64,000 nucleotides of DNA, from positions 521,207 through 585,206 of the forward strand of contig NW_019154050.1 of the NCBI RefSeq assembly GCF_001653235.2, read 5' to 3'. The position numbers and the translations under genes were made by a program. Positions 226 to 6,942 of the stretch are shown here, piece by piece; position 1 is the first letter of the stretch, and every line of letters starts with the position of its first letter. The notes under the pieces were generated by a model. That model was not told where the DNA came from. It searched no databases and worked only from the letters and a program-made list of their open reading frames with translations. Source of the stretch: Pochonia chlamydosporia 170. Its lineage: Eukaryota > Ascomycota > Sordariomycetes > Hypocreales > Clavicipitaceae.

Positions 226-810
226 TTACATGCTTAGAGACTTGATCTCTCCGGAGAAGATGTTCTTTAACACCTTGCCACCAGGAGCGTTGAGCATGTC
301 GCCAGACCCCCAGTGATTGTAGCTGTCGCCCGACCCCTCTTTTGGCACGGACGGGTCCATTTGTGACAGCGTCTCAATCGCGTCCCGAATTCCCGCGACA
401 TGGTCTTCCATTGCTTCTTTGATTGCCTCGTTCTCGGCCAAGACACACACATTATTCATTATGCCCTTCACCAAGTCCTCTACCATGCGTCCTTCTCCCA
501 CTTCTTTCACAGCCGCCTTGTATAGCTCAAACCGGGAAATCTCTGCTAGTGGTTGAGCGACGCGTTCAAATATGCTCTTGACTAACTTCGCTTTGCTGGC
601 GCACTCCTGCATTGAGTTTCCAGCAAGGTCGCGCCTGCCTATTTGCCTTTGGGCAGTTTGAAGAGCTTCATTGACGAGGTGCAGCCCTTGGCCCGACCCA
701 TGGAAAGCCTTTGGGAGACTTGCATCATCCTTGACAATTTCGTACTGGTTTGCAGCTGCCTCGAGGGTGTTGATTATGTCAGAGATTTGGGGATTGATGG
801 TGGATGGCAT
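226..810 (-). CDS. SesA-type N-terminal domain protein with C-terminal sigma-like amyloid motif (putative NLR effector partner)
   Basis: Single-exon ORF of 194 aa starting at the ATG at 810; the frame is open upstream but has only a non-ATG start there. Residues about 1-155 are helical and resemble the SesA-type domain found in front of fungal NACHT receptors (pattern LPKAFHGSGQGL, then EISRFELYKAAV, then a helical block ending in ETLSQMDPSVP). The C-terminus, about residues 162-187 (nt 250-327), carries the motif DSYNHWGSGDMLNAPGGK followed by KNIFSG. The Gly/Ser/Asn-rich GSG core recalls the sigma amyloid motif of fungal NACHT proteins. The divergent NLR at 1573 begins with a near copy of this tail. 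In known systems the small protein is the cell-death effector templated by the NLR amyloid. SesA-like assignment is fairly firm; amyloid function is inference. Confidence 0.8.
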   Translation of the reverse strand: MPSTINPQISDIINTLEAAANQYEIVKDDASLPKAFHGSGQGLHLVNEALQTAQRQIGRRDLAGNSMQECASKAKLVKSIFERVAQPLAEISRFELYKAAVKEVGEGRMVEDLVKGIMNNVCVLAENEAIKEAMEDHVAGIRDAIETLSQMDPSVPKEGSGDSYNHWGSGDMLNAPGGKVLKNIFSGEIKSLSM

Positions 811-1572
811 CTTGGACGAATGCGGAGTCTGGTCTAAGGCTTTCCTCAGCAGTCTTGAGAAGAAGCTATCCAACAACTACAGATCGCTGGAAGGTAATAT
901 ATATATATGTTGCAGAACACCAGTAGGACGAAGGGCACATAAAGCGCACCCTCCACCTCCATCGGGCGCCTGCAGCCTCAACTCAATGGTTCAGCATTTG
1001 TGTATGCTACTCTGTGGCTGCTGCCTGATGCCGTGCTGCAGCTCGACATCCCCGATGTCTCAGGAGACGCCGACGCTCAATCCGTCACAATGAAGGAGCC
1101 AATGGCAGAGATTTCCAGGCTTAAGGATGCGCGCCTACCTGAAGCTACGCATCTACTTTACCAAACCCGACTCTTCCCGTCCTACATCACCTGTCGTTGC
1201 ATTGTCCGTGGAGATCTAAAGGATGCTGTCAACTGTCTGATTACTGCCTGGCGTGCGAATTCAACGGCAGATTTGCCGAGCTCCAATCTCTGTTCAGGTC
1301 GCAAGCGAGGACTGTACATGCTCACATTTGGTGGCCGCTAATTGCCACTTGTCGCAGTAAGTCGATCTGCAGAACCGTACAGCATCCAAACTGTCGCACA
1401 AATCAAATTCTCAGTGCTGCTCCGCTTGTGATTCTATAGACATTTTTTAATTAGTCCAATATACCTACCAACGGGGAGGTACACCAGACACGAGGGCTTC
1501 TAGCCGCCGAACCGGCCTCGACTTCCTGGAGCTCACGAGTCGCACTGGGCCTTCTCAAAACCTACTATCAAC
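811..1572. promoter_or_regulatory. Shared divergent intergenic region of the effector/NLR pair
   Basis: About 760 bp between two divergent starts. An AT run at about 898-908 (TA repeats) is a possible TATA element for the minus-strand gene. Short open frames exist here but none shows a recognisable domain. The plus-strand stretch near 1100-1170 reads MAEISRLKDARLPEA, faintly like the SesA segment AEISRFELYKAAV of the neighbour, so a decayed SesA-like exon once attached to the NLR is possible but weak. Confidence 0.35.
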
Positions 1573-4500
1573 ATGGACTCATCCGTGCCAGAAGAGCCGT
1601 TAAGAGACAGTTACAACCACAGTGGCTCTGGCGACATATTCAGCGCTCCTGGCGGTAAGGCGACCAAGAATGTGTATCATGGTGCCACGAATGTGTATCA
1701 TGGTAAGAGCGGCCCTTTTGTCGACATTTTCTTCTTAGCTCACGATATCGTGCAGGCACGGACGAGCGCTTAGATCTGCCACAAGATTGCTGGAAATCGT
1801 TGGCTTTTCCGGAGATGGACAGTCGGTTCCACGATATCGAGGACGCGGCAGTGGGGACATGCAAATGGTTATCTGAACACAAAGCGTACAAGGACTGGGC
1901 GGCTTCCAATCAGGCCCTGCTCTGGATCAAGGGCAAACCTGGCTCCGGGAAATCGACGTTGCTGCGGTACACTCGGAACCATGCCATGGAAGCACCCAAC
2001 ATCGGAGAGGAAGCCTCAATCCTTTCGTTCTTCTTCCACGGGCGTGGTTCGGAACTCCAAAAGACGCAGCTGGGACTCTTCCGGTCTCTTCTTTACCAGC
2101 TCCGCGAGATACCTGAAGCACTGTCGCATGTCGTGGATGCTTTCCGACAGCGGTGCGAAACTGTCGGCAAGCCGGGCGAAAAGTGGTCGTGGCACCCTGT
2201 GGAGTTGCGCAACTTCTTTAAATCTTCAATTCTGAAGGCACTAAAGACCCGACCCCTTTGGTTATTCATCGACGCGTTAGACGAATGTGGTGAAGAAAAC
2301 GCGAGGAGCTTAGTTAGAGAGTTCACATCCTTGCAGAACAGGTTCCTGTCCACCGAGTTGAAAGACTTCCACATCTGTTTCACATGTCGTCACTACCCGA
2401 TTCTGGATCTGGATGACTCGCTGGAAATATGTGTAGAGAACGAAAATAGTCTAGATATATCGACTTTCGTGCGGGGCCAGCTCTCTACTTTCCATGAGCA
2501 GGTGCCATCTACGATTCCAGGCTTAATTACTAAACGCGCTAACGGCGTTTTCTTATGGGCTTGGCTGGTGGTGAAGCGAGTTCTGGACCTTCACCTGGAG
2601 GGTGCTGGGTTGAAGCGGATGGAGACTGTTATCTTTTCCGTCCCGCAAGAGCTTGACACCGTATACGACAAACTACTTCGGAAGATGAGGCCGGATTCTG
2701 TGACACTTATTCAATGGATCTGCTTTGCAACGCGGCCATTGTCACTAGACGAATTGCGATGGGCATTACTCATCGATCCCGATTGCCCGCATAGGTCTTT
2801 GGACGACTGCCAGAAAACGGGCGAGTATCCATCTAACGAGGACAGGATGAGGAGACGGGTTCAGACACTCAGCTGCGGTCTTGCTGAAGTCACGTCTGAG
2901 ACGAAGGTCGTGCAGTTCATCCACCAGTCCGTCAAGGACTTTTTGGTCGAGACGGGCCTATCTGCTCTAGCTGGGACGCCGAATTCGGCCGAAGCCTTGG
3001 CGTCCTCTCAGGCGGATTTGGAAGGGAAAGCACACTATGTGCTGTCTAGGACGTGCATAAGGTACCTGGCAATGAATGAGGTCGCTCAGAGCACAATGCG
3101 CGACGGAAATAGCTTGAAGTCTGCCTTTCCTCTGTTACATTATGCTACGACATCGTGGGTGACACACGCAAAGCAAAGCGAGCTAAGGGGGGTCTCTCAG
3201 GATGACCTCCTACGCTATTTCGACTGGCCGTCGGAAGCGCTGGTGCAGGTATGGGTGGGGGTTTACCGTATACTATCGCGATACTCAGACGACTGCCCAG
3301 AAGACGGGACAAAAATGATACACATCGTGTCGCGACATGGGCTACTAGGGCCATTACGGGTTATAACACGGACGGTAAGGCAGGACAGCGCTTTCATCGA
3401 TGCGAAGGATGGCTGCGGTCGGACCGCGTTGTCGTACGCAGCCGAGAATGGACACGAAGCCGCTGTGAAGCAGCTCCTGGCGCCTGGGGAAACTAGAAGT
3501 GTTAAGGCCATAATGAAGCTGCTTCTCGCCAAAGGCGGCAAAGCCAAGTCGAAAGATAACGACGGTCGGACGCCGCTGTCGTGGGCCGCCGCGAACGGGC
3601 ACGAGGCCATCGTCAAGTTGCTCCTCGACAAGGGCGCCAAAGCCAAGTCGGAAGATTACAGTGGTCGGACGCCGTTGTCGTGGGCCGCCGCGAACGGGCA
3701 CGAGGCCATCGTCAAGCTGCTCGTCGACAAGGGCGCCGAAATTGAGTCGAAAGATGACTACGGTAAGACGCCGCTGTCGCGGGCCGCCGCGAACGGGCAC
3801 GAGGCCATGGTCAAGCTGCTCGTCGACAAGGGCGCCGACGTCGAGTCGAAAGATGGCTACGGTCAAACGCCGCTGTCGCGGGCCGCCGCGAACGGGCACG
3901 AGGCCATGGTCAAGCTGCTCGTCGACAAGGGCGCCGACGTCGAGTCGAAAGATAGCTACGGTCATACGCCGCTGTGGCGGGCAATCGAGAAGGGGCACGA
4001 GGCCATGGTCAAGCTGCTCGTCGACAAGGGCGCCGACGTCGAGTCGAAAGATGTCCTCGGTCGGACGCCGCTGTCTCGTGCAATCGAGAACGGGCACGAG
4101 GCCATGGTCAAGCTGCTCGTCGACAAGGGCGCTGACGTCGAGTCGAAAGATAGCTACGGTCGGACGCCGCTGTGGCAGGCTACCGAGAAGGGGCACGAGG
4201 CCATGGTCAAGCTGCTCCTCGACAAGGGCGCCGACGTCGAGTCGAAAGATAGCTACGGTCGGACGCCGCTGTCTCGTGCAATCGAGAAGGGGCACGAGGT
4301 CATGGTCAAGCTGCTCCTCGACAAGGGCGCTGACGTCGAGTCGAAAGATAGCTACGGTCGGACGACGCTGTGGTGGGCTACCGAGAAGGGGCACGAGGCC
4401 ATGGTCAAGCTGCTCGTCGACAAGGGCGCCGACGTCGAGTCGAAAGATGTCCTCGGTCGGACGCCGCTGTCTCGTGCCGCCGCGAACGGGCACGAGGTCA

Positions 4501-4634
4501 TGGTCAAGCTGCTCGTCGACAAGGGCGCCGACGTCGAGTCGAAAGATCGCTACGGTCAAACGCCGCTGTCGCGGGCCGCCGCGAACGGGCACGAGGCCAT
4601 CGTCAAGCGGCTGCAGCCTAACCTACCATCGTAA
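1573..4634 (+). CDS. NLR-type STAND receptor: sigma-like motif, NACHT NTPase, ankyrin repeats
   Basis: Two exons, 1573-1702 and 1756-4634, joined over a 53-bp intron (GTAAGA donor, CTCAC branch, CAG acceptor) give a continuous 1002-aa protein. The first 40 residues hold the motif DSYNHSGSGDIFSAPGGK, then two NVYHG copies. This matches the tail of the divergent neighbour (D-SVP-E, DSYNH, GSGD, APGGK, KN). Next comes the linker usually preceding NACHT domains (LAFPEMDSRF). Walker A is GKPGSGKST at about 103-111; Walker B is LWLFIDALDE at about 211-220. The C-terminus is one divergent and eleven near-identical ankyrin repeats; the last is cut short and ends QPNLPS. The family senses ligand through the repeats and oligomerises by NACHT; here the N-terminus would nucleate the partner amyloid. 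NACHT-ankyrin identity is firm. Confidence 0.92.
3555..4624 (+). repeat. Tandem 99-bp repeat array encoding 33-aa ankyrin repeats
   Basis: Units begin at each D-x-x-G-[RKQH]-T-P-L motif, every 99 bp from 3555 (3654, 3753 and so on to 4545): ten full units and one truncated. Nearly all bases are identical between units. Changes gather at the three residues before the conserved Gly (NDG, YSG, DYG, GYG, SYG, VLG, RYG) and in the first helix (SRAAANG, SRAIENG, WRAIEKG, WQATEKG, WWATEKG). Such high internal conservation implies recent unit turnover by recombination. Confidence 0.92.
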
Positions 4635-6456
4635 CTCCACTTCGTTATTCTTATCATGGCATGCTACTTCGGGTCTAAGAGGATCCTTTCTTTCTCATCT
4701 CTTTGCCCTACAACGGGTCCTAGGGCCCAGTGGAAATTTATACGACTTGATGGCCCGGTGTTGTTGGTGTCGACATTTGAGAATGTTCGAGCAACTTCTG
4801 TTTGTCAGCATGTGATGAGACGCGCATAATATAGCGTTGATTTCTCATCTATAAGCAAAGTATGACGAATACAAGTAGATGGTCCATTGGACACTTGGGC
4901 GGCACCGAGGATAACGCCCAGTGCCACCGGATTCGTACAGACACGAGGCTCCCGCTTCACCGCTGATCGTTGACATACTTGAACAGTCGGGAAAGCTGAC
5001 ATGATTCTACGATAGAGCAACAGCAATGGCTATAAGAAAGATTATTTTAATCCCTAGAAGTAATGCCTGGACGTGTTGCGCATGGACTTCCGCTGTCTTA
5101 GGATTCTAACCCCCCAATTGTCAGTTGGTATAATTCCGTGTGTTGCGGCGGCTTGCTTGATTTCTCTTATTCTAAGGCACCTCCAGTGCTAAATATGTGT
5201 TTCCTACTTATGTTGCGGCAACATCCAGAGAGCATGACAGCGTCACGATGCGATACGGATGTTCAACTTTGTGCAGTATCGTACCTGGAGCAACTCCTTC
5301 GATCGTGTCGGGAACCGGCAGCTCTGTCGCGCATGTTGTTTCTCTATTTGAGCCCACGAGAGCTTAGTGAGTGGTAGAACCGATACATGTCTACGAGCTT
5401 GCTCCTTTGTCCCTAGCCGGGCATGTTCATAACAGTGCACAAAGTACAATCTCGCTCTTTTCGACACGGCCAAATTTTGTCAAATAAGTATCCGTATGTA
5501 GATATTCTCCACGCAGTCAAGTTCATCTACATCACCAATTAACGACGGCCAATTGCAGGCGCCATTATTCCCCAATAGACGTCAAGACAAAAAGGACACA
5601 AGGTCGCTGAATGCTGCATGCCTTTCACCCAGTCATTCTCCCAACCATGAGCGCCGCGGCACTGCTCCTGAATCCCTCGTAGATGTCGGCACACATGTGA
5701 GCACTCCAAAAGAATGCCATCATGAATCTCGTCAGGTCACTCCCCATAATATATGGTAAGCATCGCCAACATCCCCATGCTTTCGAGTCCAAGATCAAGC
5801 ATCCTCCGACGCGTGGCGAGACGACGACGACGAGCTCACCTGGCTTGTACCTCACATAGCCGTGTGACTTGCATACGACAGGCTGTCAAGTCACTACCAG
5901 CGTTGAGAAGGAGCTCAACCTGGAGCGATCAGCCAACATACACCGGGTAACTCCTAATCGTGGAGTAGTCCTTACCGTTGCGTCTGCTTCCCTACCGCTT
6001 CATGCACGGTCAGAAGATCCTCTTTGAAGAGGCTTGTGGACTTGCATCTTGTCTGGACGGCCTGCCAGATGTTCCTCAAGCCGTACCAGGGCTTTCTCCC
6101 CAAATCTCGCTCTGCGCTCAACATTACTCGTTCGAGCAATCTACACCTATCCAAGGTTGGCGGCCCATGGACCTCCAAACTCGTGACCCAGAATTACTCT
6201 AGCAAGTCGAGAATGGCGTGAAAATACTTGCAGTCGGGGCGAGTTGGGCGTACAAAAGGTGCTATGACCGTGTTGGCTATAAAATACGTCTACGTGCATA
6301 TATGATGTGGCAGTATGCAAAAGCGAATGAATTAAGTCACTAGAATCCGCCAACTCTGGACTCCTTGCCTCTCTCGTAAACAAATTTGTGAGGCCCCTTT
6401 TGATAGGTCATGGCAACTCTCTCGCCACATCACAGAAGGCAAGTATACTTAGACAC
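4635..6456. other. Intergenic stretch without a supportable gene
   Basis: About 1.8 kb with only short open frames on both strands (up to about 85 codons), none with a recognisable motif or convincing splice structure. I see no repeat or mobile-element signature. It may hold the 3' ends of both flanking genes. Confidence 0.4.
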
Positions 6457-6942
6457 TCATCGATGCAAATGTAGCTTATTGACGATAACCCCATGTAACT
6501 CGTCGATATTATCCAGGAATTCGATCCCGAACTTTTGGCAAACTATTTGCACGTTGCCCCTCTTCGAATATCCCTTCGGAGCTATGGCGATAACTTTGCC
6601 TGGTACCTGTGCAGAAAGCCCGAATTCCAGAAGGCTTATCGGAGCCACCGTAGCTGGGTGGAAGTAAACCACAACAAGGTCGGCCTGGACTTGTTTGTCG
6701 AGCTCCCACAGGACTTGCTCACGATATGGAGCAAAACTAATGTCCTCACGCCATGTGCTGTCCCAGTCTGGGCGGTTGGGATTGAAAATAGTTATCGGGT
6801 GCTCGGAAAGCGAGGCAGATAGTTTTTCGCGCCAGTCGACATTGTCGACTGTAGTTGTGGTACCTGCGAGGAAGACGGATTTGATGCCTGTTATCGCCTC
6901 CTCCGAAGGTGCCCGTACGATCTGGCTTCCCTGGGAACTCAT
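6457..6942 (-). CDS. Nucleoside 2-deoxyribosyltransferase-like protein
   Basis: Single-exon ORF; the ATG at 6942 (MSSQGSQ) gives 161 aa, close to the size of the stand-alone family, and is preferred over a start 24 codons upstream. Features in order: SVFLAG glycine-containing first strand, FNPNRPDWDSTW, WELDKQ, a hydrophobic strand, PISLLEFGL with the acidic residue typical of the catalytic glutamate, PKGYSKRGNVQIVC. These match the Nuc_deoxyri_tr2 type of Rossmann-like N-ribosyl hydrolase/transferases. The family cleaves or transfers N-glycosidic bonds of nucleosides or nucleotides; the substrate is unknown here. It lies 370 bp downstream of an NLR on the same strand, suggesting a functional partnership, which is inference. 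Confidence 0.8.
   Translation of the reverse strand: MSSQGSQIVRAPSEEAITGIKSVFLAGTTTTVDNVDWREKLSASLSEHPITIFNPNRPDWDSTWREDISFAPYREQVLWELDKQVQADLVVVYFHPATVAPISLLEFGLSAQVPGKVIAIAPKGYSKRGNVQIVCQKFGIEFLDNIDELHGVIVNKLHLHR

Follow-up and report, generated by a model that had tools for sequence, protein, structure and literature searches.

What does the small SesA-like protein near the left end of this stretch of Pochonia chlamydosporia 170 DNA share with the NOD-like receptor (NLR) encoded divergently beside it, and in what kind of system would the two proteins act? P. chlamydosporia belongs to the family Clavicipitaceae of the order Hypocreales, and the genome of strain 170 comprises 44.2 Mb in 49 contigs. 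The stretch analyzed, hereafter the window, is 64,000 nucleotides long and corresponds to bases 521207-585206 of contig C15 (727,680 bases). The original prediction had described an effector/NLR pair that shares a variant sigma-like amyloid motif, and both genes lie where it placed them, with the SesA-like gene at 226-810 on the minus strand and the NLR gene at 1573-4634 on the plus strand. The features of these genes and of their neighbors are listed below, in window coordinates unless a contig is named.

226-810, minus strand: SesA-like gene, 194 residues, one exon (open frame; Pfam SesA at 98.6 bits, cut-off 26.3).
439-786, minus strand: SesA domain, residues 9-124 (Pfam match), with no hydrophobic N-terminal segment.
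250-360, minus strand: C-terminal shared segment of SesA, residues 151-187, with the reduced sigma motif (23 of 37 residues identical to NLR residues 1-37).
811-1572, no strand: intergenic stretch of 762 base pairs separating the start codons of the divergent SesA and NLR genes (gene coordinates), presumed to hold the promoters of both.
1573-1702, plus strand: NLR exon 1, with start codon, linker and reduced sigma motif (splice model, in agreement with protein record P0122).
1573-1683, plus strand: N-terminal shared segment of the NLR, residues 1-37 (alignment with SesA and genome-wide search).
1703-1755, plus strand: NLR intron of 53 base pairs, GT-AG (splice model; a counterpart of 54 base pairs occupies the same place in a second NLR).
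1756-4634, plus strand: NLR exon 2, with a NACHT/NPHP3-type nucleoside triphosphatase (NTPase) domain and ankyrin repeats (Pfam).
3405-4634, plus strand: ankyrin array of 12 recognized units, spaced at 33 residues except for the first (49).
C15:513917-516853, minus strand: NLR-left, a second, inverted copy of the receptor.
C15:519971-521119, plus strand: SesB, with the same tag at its C-terminus.

The tail of SesA and the head of the NLR are clearly related. SesA residues 151-187 and NLR residues 1-37 form an ungapped 37-residue alignment in which 23 residues are identical, and it scores 126, whereas the best of 20,000 double shuffles reached 48. Of the 1342 stop-to-stop frames of at least 30 residues in the window, SesA (126) ranked second to the NLR itself and the next best frame scored 40, and a six-frame search of the whole genome with the first 44 residues of the NLR found SesA at an E value of 1.7e-9, which indicates that the predicted shared motif is real. 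Its length is 37 residues rather than the 33 first proposed. Similarly, the proposal that the NLR starts exactly where the SesA domain ends proved close without being exact, as Met1 of the NLR aligns with Met151 of SesA, 27 residues past the end of the Pfam match at residue 124 and at the point where a low-confidence model closes its last long helix (128-151). At the DNA level, 79 of 111 positions are identical and the same codon is used for 16 of the 23 identical residues, which argues that the shared segment is not a fresh copy.

The tag is also more widely distributed than the term pair implied, being carried by a set of at least four genes on C15. From left to right, these are NLR-left (minus strand), the hydrolase gene sesB (plus), sesA (minus) and NLR-right (plus); sesA and NLR-right lie within the window, and sesB and NLR-left lie immediately to its left. 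SesB and SesA are encoded tail to tail with 312 base pairs between them, and SesA and NLR-right head to head. The six-frame search returned eight places at E values up to 10, of which seven fall in two clusters: four in C15 (the NLR itself, SesA, the second NLR and SesB) and three in a paralogous triad of SesB (plus), SesA (minus) and NLR (plus) that has the same layout at about C2:5639.9-5645.9 kb. Between C15 and C2, identity is 49% for the SesA domains, 72.5% for the SesB domains and 53-57% for the NTPase regions. The original prediction had hinged on the existence of further NLR/neighbor pairs with the motif, and the C2 triad provides them. The eighth place is a broken NLR remnant. Located close to the start of contig C1 (L032:3909-4992, near 23 kb), this copy consists of a 5' end that matches window 1474-1985 followed almost directly by a 3' end that matches window 4524-5083.

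The C15 locus displays four features of a ses-type cluster: a SesA-domain protein, a SesB alpha/beta-hydrolase neighbor, an adjacent NLR of the STAND (signal-transducing ATPase with numerous domains) type in which the tag replaces the effector domain, and a tag shared three ways. This arrangement bears out the prediction of an effector/NLR module with a sigma-like motif in the genomic layout of known signalosomes, here that of the ses locus (PMC3321046, PMC516043).

We next consider the form of the tag. The published sigma motif comprises three units of type A (GxGxQFNxx) or type B (GGTQNINT) (PMC3321046). Typical SesB tails read GDQFNAPGGTQNISKGSGNQFPGATFSGPVQFG. The tags of Pochonia SesB read GDMLNAPGGTVTKSNFAGASFPGPVSFG and similar, with Q changed to M or I, a degenerate B unit and the second A unit gone. 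The SesA and NLR tags in the window likewise contain one A unit with its Q replaced and a degenerate B unit, in place of the three classical units, and by eye all seven aligned Pochonia copies have another residue in place of the Q of GxGxQF and lack the second GSGxQF unit. The prediction that the motif is unlike classical sigma was thus correct. The Pfam profile NACHT_sigma (cut-off 27.6 bits) recognizes the SesB tags of C15 (32.8) and C2 (28.0) and scores below its cut-off for SesA (22.6, residues 162-183), NLR-right (17.4, residues 12-33) and NLR-left (18.1). The C15 SesA and NLR tags match the same model positions as the SesB tag, and the SesA of C2 is borderline, at 22.8 in one scoring and at the cut-off when scored 'with its neighbours'. 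In every member of the cluster the tag is a homolog of the sigma motif in reduced form, and the tags in the window are a reduced, sigma-derived variant rather than classical sigma. Because the curated profile misses reduced copies such as the two in the window, counts of sigma systems may be low.

Comparison across species relies on SesB, because searches with the other two proteins returned few relatives. A search of 5.8 billion proteins with SesA recovered the query alone among 135 candidates and missed the C2 paralog as well, so that either the search was insensitive or the C2 protein is absent from the database; no public record for the window SesA was listed in the protein search. The head of the NLR gave two matches among 11 candidates, both from the C15 locus. 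A comparable search with SesB gave 806 matches, and SesA may be fast-evolving or under-annotated. The SesB beside the window, P0002, is identical to the record 'SesB protein [Pochonia chlamydosporia 170]' and 66% identical to P0024, the SesB of Fusarium haematococcum. The best 120 of the 806 matches were examined; one had no match at the end of the core, which left 119 tails, of which 66 carry the anchor pattern. The remaining set of 54 stands outside the counts that follow; many of these proteins have no sigma tail, some have sigma-like tails that the pattern missed (for example, P0021, P0025, P0037, P0051 and P0102), and by eye none has GDM in the first unit.

Within the 66 anchored tails, the position of Q is occupied by Q in 58, M in five and other residues in three. 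The five with M are two from Pochonia, two from Metarhizium and P0003, and together with P0026, which has Q, they form a group of six with support of 100/99 in a tree of 68 tail-less SesB cores (from the best 120; midpoint root; bootstrap not settled). By eye, the second unit is wholly absent from four of the 66 tails (P0002, P0023, P0031, P0041), all within this group, and divergent in P0024 and P0073; the count of missing second units depends on strictness, with three patterns giving 3, 5 and 9 of 66. The tree pairs the reduced P0002 with the full-length P0003 and the reduced P0023 with the full-length P0026, and a single clade of the reduced sequences is not rejected by the approximately unbiased test (p-AU 0.156 for two sequences, 0.116 for four). 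Of the proposal that the motif forms a distinct subfamily, the reduced variant stands, and the separate subfamily is not supported in the form proposed, because the SesB tag passes the Pfam sigma cut-off (32.8 versus 27.6) and its relatives grade from full to reduced. Recent gene conversion was considered as the source of the reduced tag in both clusters and is not supported by third-codon identity between C15 and C2, which is 0.53 in the tail and 0.60 in the domain of SesB, and 0.64 in the tail and 0.50 in the domain of SesA, whose tail has only 13 fourfold sites.

Concerning the receptors, the splice model of the NLR in the window yields 1002 residues, the same length as P0122, to which it is 100% identical across the 95 residues compared; that record, from the same strain, is titled 'ankyrin repeats (3 copies) domain-containing protein'. 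Pfam matches include NPHP3_N at 108.3 bits (residues 77-255), ankyrin families, and NACHT at 25.6 bits (residues 99-261), just below the cut-off of 26.7, and a six-frame NACHT match scored 29.1 bits. NLR-left and NLR-right are duplicates in inverted orientation: segments of window 1026-4722 align with the left copy, mostly at 84-87% DNA identity, and the right part of the intergenic stretch between SesA and the NLR (from 1026) falls within the duplicated segment. Outside the repeats, the two proteins are 80% identical across 555 codons, and over residues 45-600 nonsynonymous divergence (dN) is 0.12 and synonymous divergence (dS) is 0.31, a dN/dS of about 0.40, which indicates that the two NLRs have diverged under constraint. 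The ankyrin units (window 3405-4634) are nearly alike, with variation clustered at few columns, and their dN/dS between the two NLRs is 0.83 versus 0.40 outside the repeats, a value that carries the uncertainty of the repeat register. High internal repeat conservation has been described in a share of fungal NLRs (PMC4986451).

The alignments also hint at how the receptor acquired its tag. In both clusters the first Met of the NLR is aligned to a Met of the SesA linker, and on contig C6 a SesA with a similar linker, MEPSLP (by eye), directly precedes a NACHT frame on the same strand. We infer that the NLR head may derive from a SesA-tag-NACHT fusion whose SesA domain was later lost, which would explain both the Met alignment and the C6 arrangement. 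'All-in-one' and split receptor forms are known to coexist in fungi (PMC3321046). The C6 SesA frame (L031:5785-6480, minus strand) has a long tag rich in Q and N that scores 18.8 bits for NACHT_sigma, below the cut-off; directly downstream on the same strand lies the NACHT frame (L031:4166-5746) followed, by eye, by a WD-repeat-like frame, and this arrangement is probably an all-in-one receptor. On contig C9 (124001-132000, L033), two SesA genes on opposite strands have nearly identical long Q/N-rich tails and lie beside a NACHT-ankyrin-like frame; the plus-strand SesA has no Pfam sigma match at E values up to 0.1.

Taken together, the locus probably represents a receptor/effector cluster of the ses (sigma) type, in which the NLR templates the tags of SesA and SesB, with SesB as executioner and SesA as relay. 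By analogy with the HET-S/NWD2 and PP systems (PMC5485727), the ankyrin array would sense a non-self or stress cue and the NACHT domain would oligomerize, so clustering the N-terminal motifs of the NLR, which could take a cross-beta fold. That fold would serve as a template for the C-terminal motifs of SesA and SesB, which would adopt it in turn; SesB, a predicted serine hydrolase, would attack membrane lipid and cause growth arrest or cell death, and SesA would relay and amplify the fold. Amyloid formation by the tag is likewise probable from its relatives. A sigma peptide from Nectria haematococca (residues 349-385 of AAS80314.1) showed amyloid-like aggregation by Fourier-transform infrared spectroscopy and Congo red (PMC8086366); its letters match the tail of SesB P0024, in which the second unit is itself divergent. 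A het-eN peptide was reported, as unpublished results, to form fibrils (PMC3321046). Formation and transmission of sigma in N. haematococca require SesA, a dominant Gly-to-Glu change at the end of SesA alters sigma behavior, and SesB mutants, including a frameshift 120 base pairs before the stop codon, keep sigma and pigment and lose the growth alteration (PMC516043). We read these mutants as pointing to SesB as the growth-altering enzyme, which would have to be reached through its tail; the authors of that work left two models open.

The SesB model is consistent with this role. In the core, 18 of 27 ten-residue blocks (residues 51-320) reach a predicted local distance difference test (pLDDT) score of at least 75, with most of the tail below 50; the top Foldseek matches are alpha/beta hydrolases (thioesterases, epoxide hydrolases, monoacylglycerol lipase); and all 40 sequences aligned from the best 120 share S159 and H292.

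Several points weigh against this assignment. The template modeling scores of the Foldseek matches are low (0.30-0.41 by query length, with root-mean-square deviations of 6.9-11.6). The Q-bearing triple repeat that defines sigma is missing from the tag, and Q averages 3.0 per 32 residues in the 58 canonical tails versus 0-2 per 25-32 in the seven variant copies. No aggregation was seen for a sigma-like peptide of a Coleophoma NLR (PMC8086366), which means that resemblance to sigma is no proof of amyloid. Because SesA of N. haematococca is needed for sigma and pigmentation, a SesA that only relays may be too simple. Finally, published tags group by cluster (PMC3321046), and here this pattern holds in part, for SesA and NLR and not for SesB, in small numbers. 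Over 26 columns, SesA and NLR tags share 16 (C15) and 17 (C2) within clusters and 14 and 12 across them, and the tags of NLR-right and the C2 NLR share 12; between clusters, SesB tags share 21 and SesA tags 19, both above the effector/NLR values within clusters. Three columns (S/N, H/N, G/S) separate the clusters in both SesA and NLR, none shows the crossed pattern and two follow gene type.

A first alternative assigns the killing step to SesA, as a HeLo-like helical bundle that, after templating of its tail, permeabilizes membranes, and makes SesB a modulator. SesA overlaps annotations of the HeLo-like/MLKL type (PMC4986451, PMC9815663), and one C9 paralog matches MLKL_N weakly (15.5 bits, cut-off 27). 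However, the N-termini of the window SesA and its C2 paralog are not membrane-like: the best 19-residue hydropathy within the first 40 residues is 0.22 and 0.61, respectively, compared with 1.91 for C6 and 1.69 for the C9 plus-strand SesA (the C9 minus-strand one, at 0.81, is low as well; C6 and C9 start codons were picked by eye). Because SesA lacks a pore-former N-terminus, SesB is favored as executioner and SesA as relay, and we regard the alternative as rather doubtful. Pfam (E values up to 1) reported the SesA and NACHT_sigma families alone for the window SesA, and found in it neither the HeLo domain nor the HET-s-type repeats that mark systems with a HET-s-related amyloid motif (HET-S/NWD2). 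A single-sequence model of SesA shows helices, the last long one at residues 128-151, with a mean pLDDT of 48, too weak to rely on or for a fold search, and a PDB sequence search gave four matches, the best at an E value of 0.16.

A second alternative is that the tag docks like to like without forming amyloid, the loss of Q and of the second unit having turned a prion motif into an ordinary interaction peptide. The changes that would drive such a conversion are those seen by eye in all seven Pochonia copies, and the non-aggregating NLR peptide (PMC8086366) fits it too. Nevertheless, the GSGD core and the glycine spacing are largely kept in the tags. Other amyloid signaling motifs are not known to be Q/N-rich throughout, and we consider this alternative unlikely. 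Decay of the cluster, with the shortening of the motif as loss of function, finds an echo in the broken NLR copy on C1 and the still shorter Metarhizium SesB tails (from unchecked gene models), but is very improbable given that both genes in the window are intact, the two NLRs are constrained (dN/dS about 0.40, residues 45-600) and two clusters retain the reduced form in SesA, SesB and NLR alike.

Within the ses-type interpretation, the reduced motif represents a naturally minimal version of sigma, with a single A unit and no core Q, found in three partner contexts beside the longer relatives P0003, P0026 and P0024. This natural length series makes directly testable both how little of the sigma motif suffices for forming and transmitting the fold and what determines the specificity of seeding. 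A more speculative and improbable proposal is that the reduced, Q-less motif forms a functional amyloid that seeds separately from the Q/N-rich, sigma-like tags of the C6 and C9 SesA proteins, as parallel private channels, with SesA and NLR of each cluster further matched at the three columns above. The literature already describes this type of locus, the tag shared three ways and the role presumed for it, and the reduced, Q-poor tag is a modest variation on them. In literature searches that covered few subscription papers, the titles and abstract openings of the papers listed contained no report of a reduced, Q-less sigma motif, and a term search of the main texts of PMC9815663, PMC3321046 and PMC12261475 found no Pochonia, Metarhizium or Clavicipitaceae. 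About 1.8 kb to the right of the NLR, window 6484-6939 (minus strand) encodes a protein like nucleoside 2-deoxyribosyltransferase (Nuc_deoxyri_tr2, 121 bits).

Known systems place the locus as follows. HET-S/NWD2 and the PP systems (HELLP/SBP/PNT1) resemble it in having a short tag common to NLR and effector encoded by adjacent genes (PMC5485727), but neither the HET-S nor the PP (Pfam Ses_B) family occurs among the Pfam matches listed (25 of 26 for the NLR). The GDQN motif of Fusarium oxysporum is also shared by an NLR/SesA pair and lies outside family profiles (PMC12261475), whereas its pattern, GxGDQNxVS with further Q, differs by eye from the Pochonia tag. In Metarhizium, the SesB proteins P0031 and P0041 share with Pochonia SesB the sequence GSGDMFNAPGG, with M for Q, the absence of the second unit and membership of the group of six, although their tails end 6-7 residues past GG; a SesB-like NACHT-ankyrin protein has been tabulated for M. 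anisopliae (PMC4986451). P0003, with GSGDMLNAPGG, is the nearest to P0002 among the best 120 of 806 matches (79% identical, 99% covered) and, unlike P0002, retains TQNISKGSGNQF, which makes it intermediate between the classical and the reduced tags. In layout, the locus resembles the ses locus of N. haematococca (sesA, sesB and het-eN), which controls the sigma element and where SesA and SesB are encoded on opposite strands, the adjacent NACHT-ankyrin STAND gene has a 5' intron, and the tag stands at both effector C-termini and the NLR N-terminus (PMC516043, PMC3321046). In contrast to that locus, the Pochonia SesB/SesA genes are flanked by two NLR copies, and in their tag a single A unit, with its Q replaced by M or I, is accompanied by a degenerate B unit, whereas in the N. 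haematococca SesB, P0024, both positions carry Q and the second unit is divergent.

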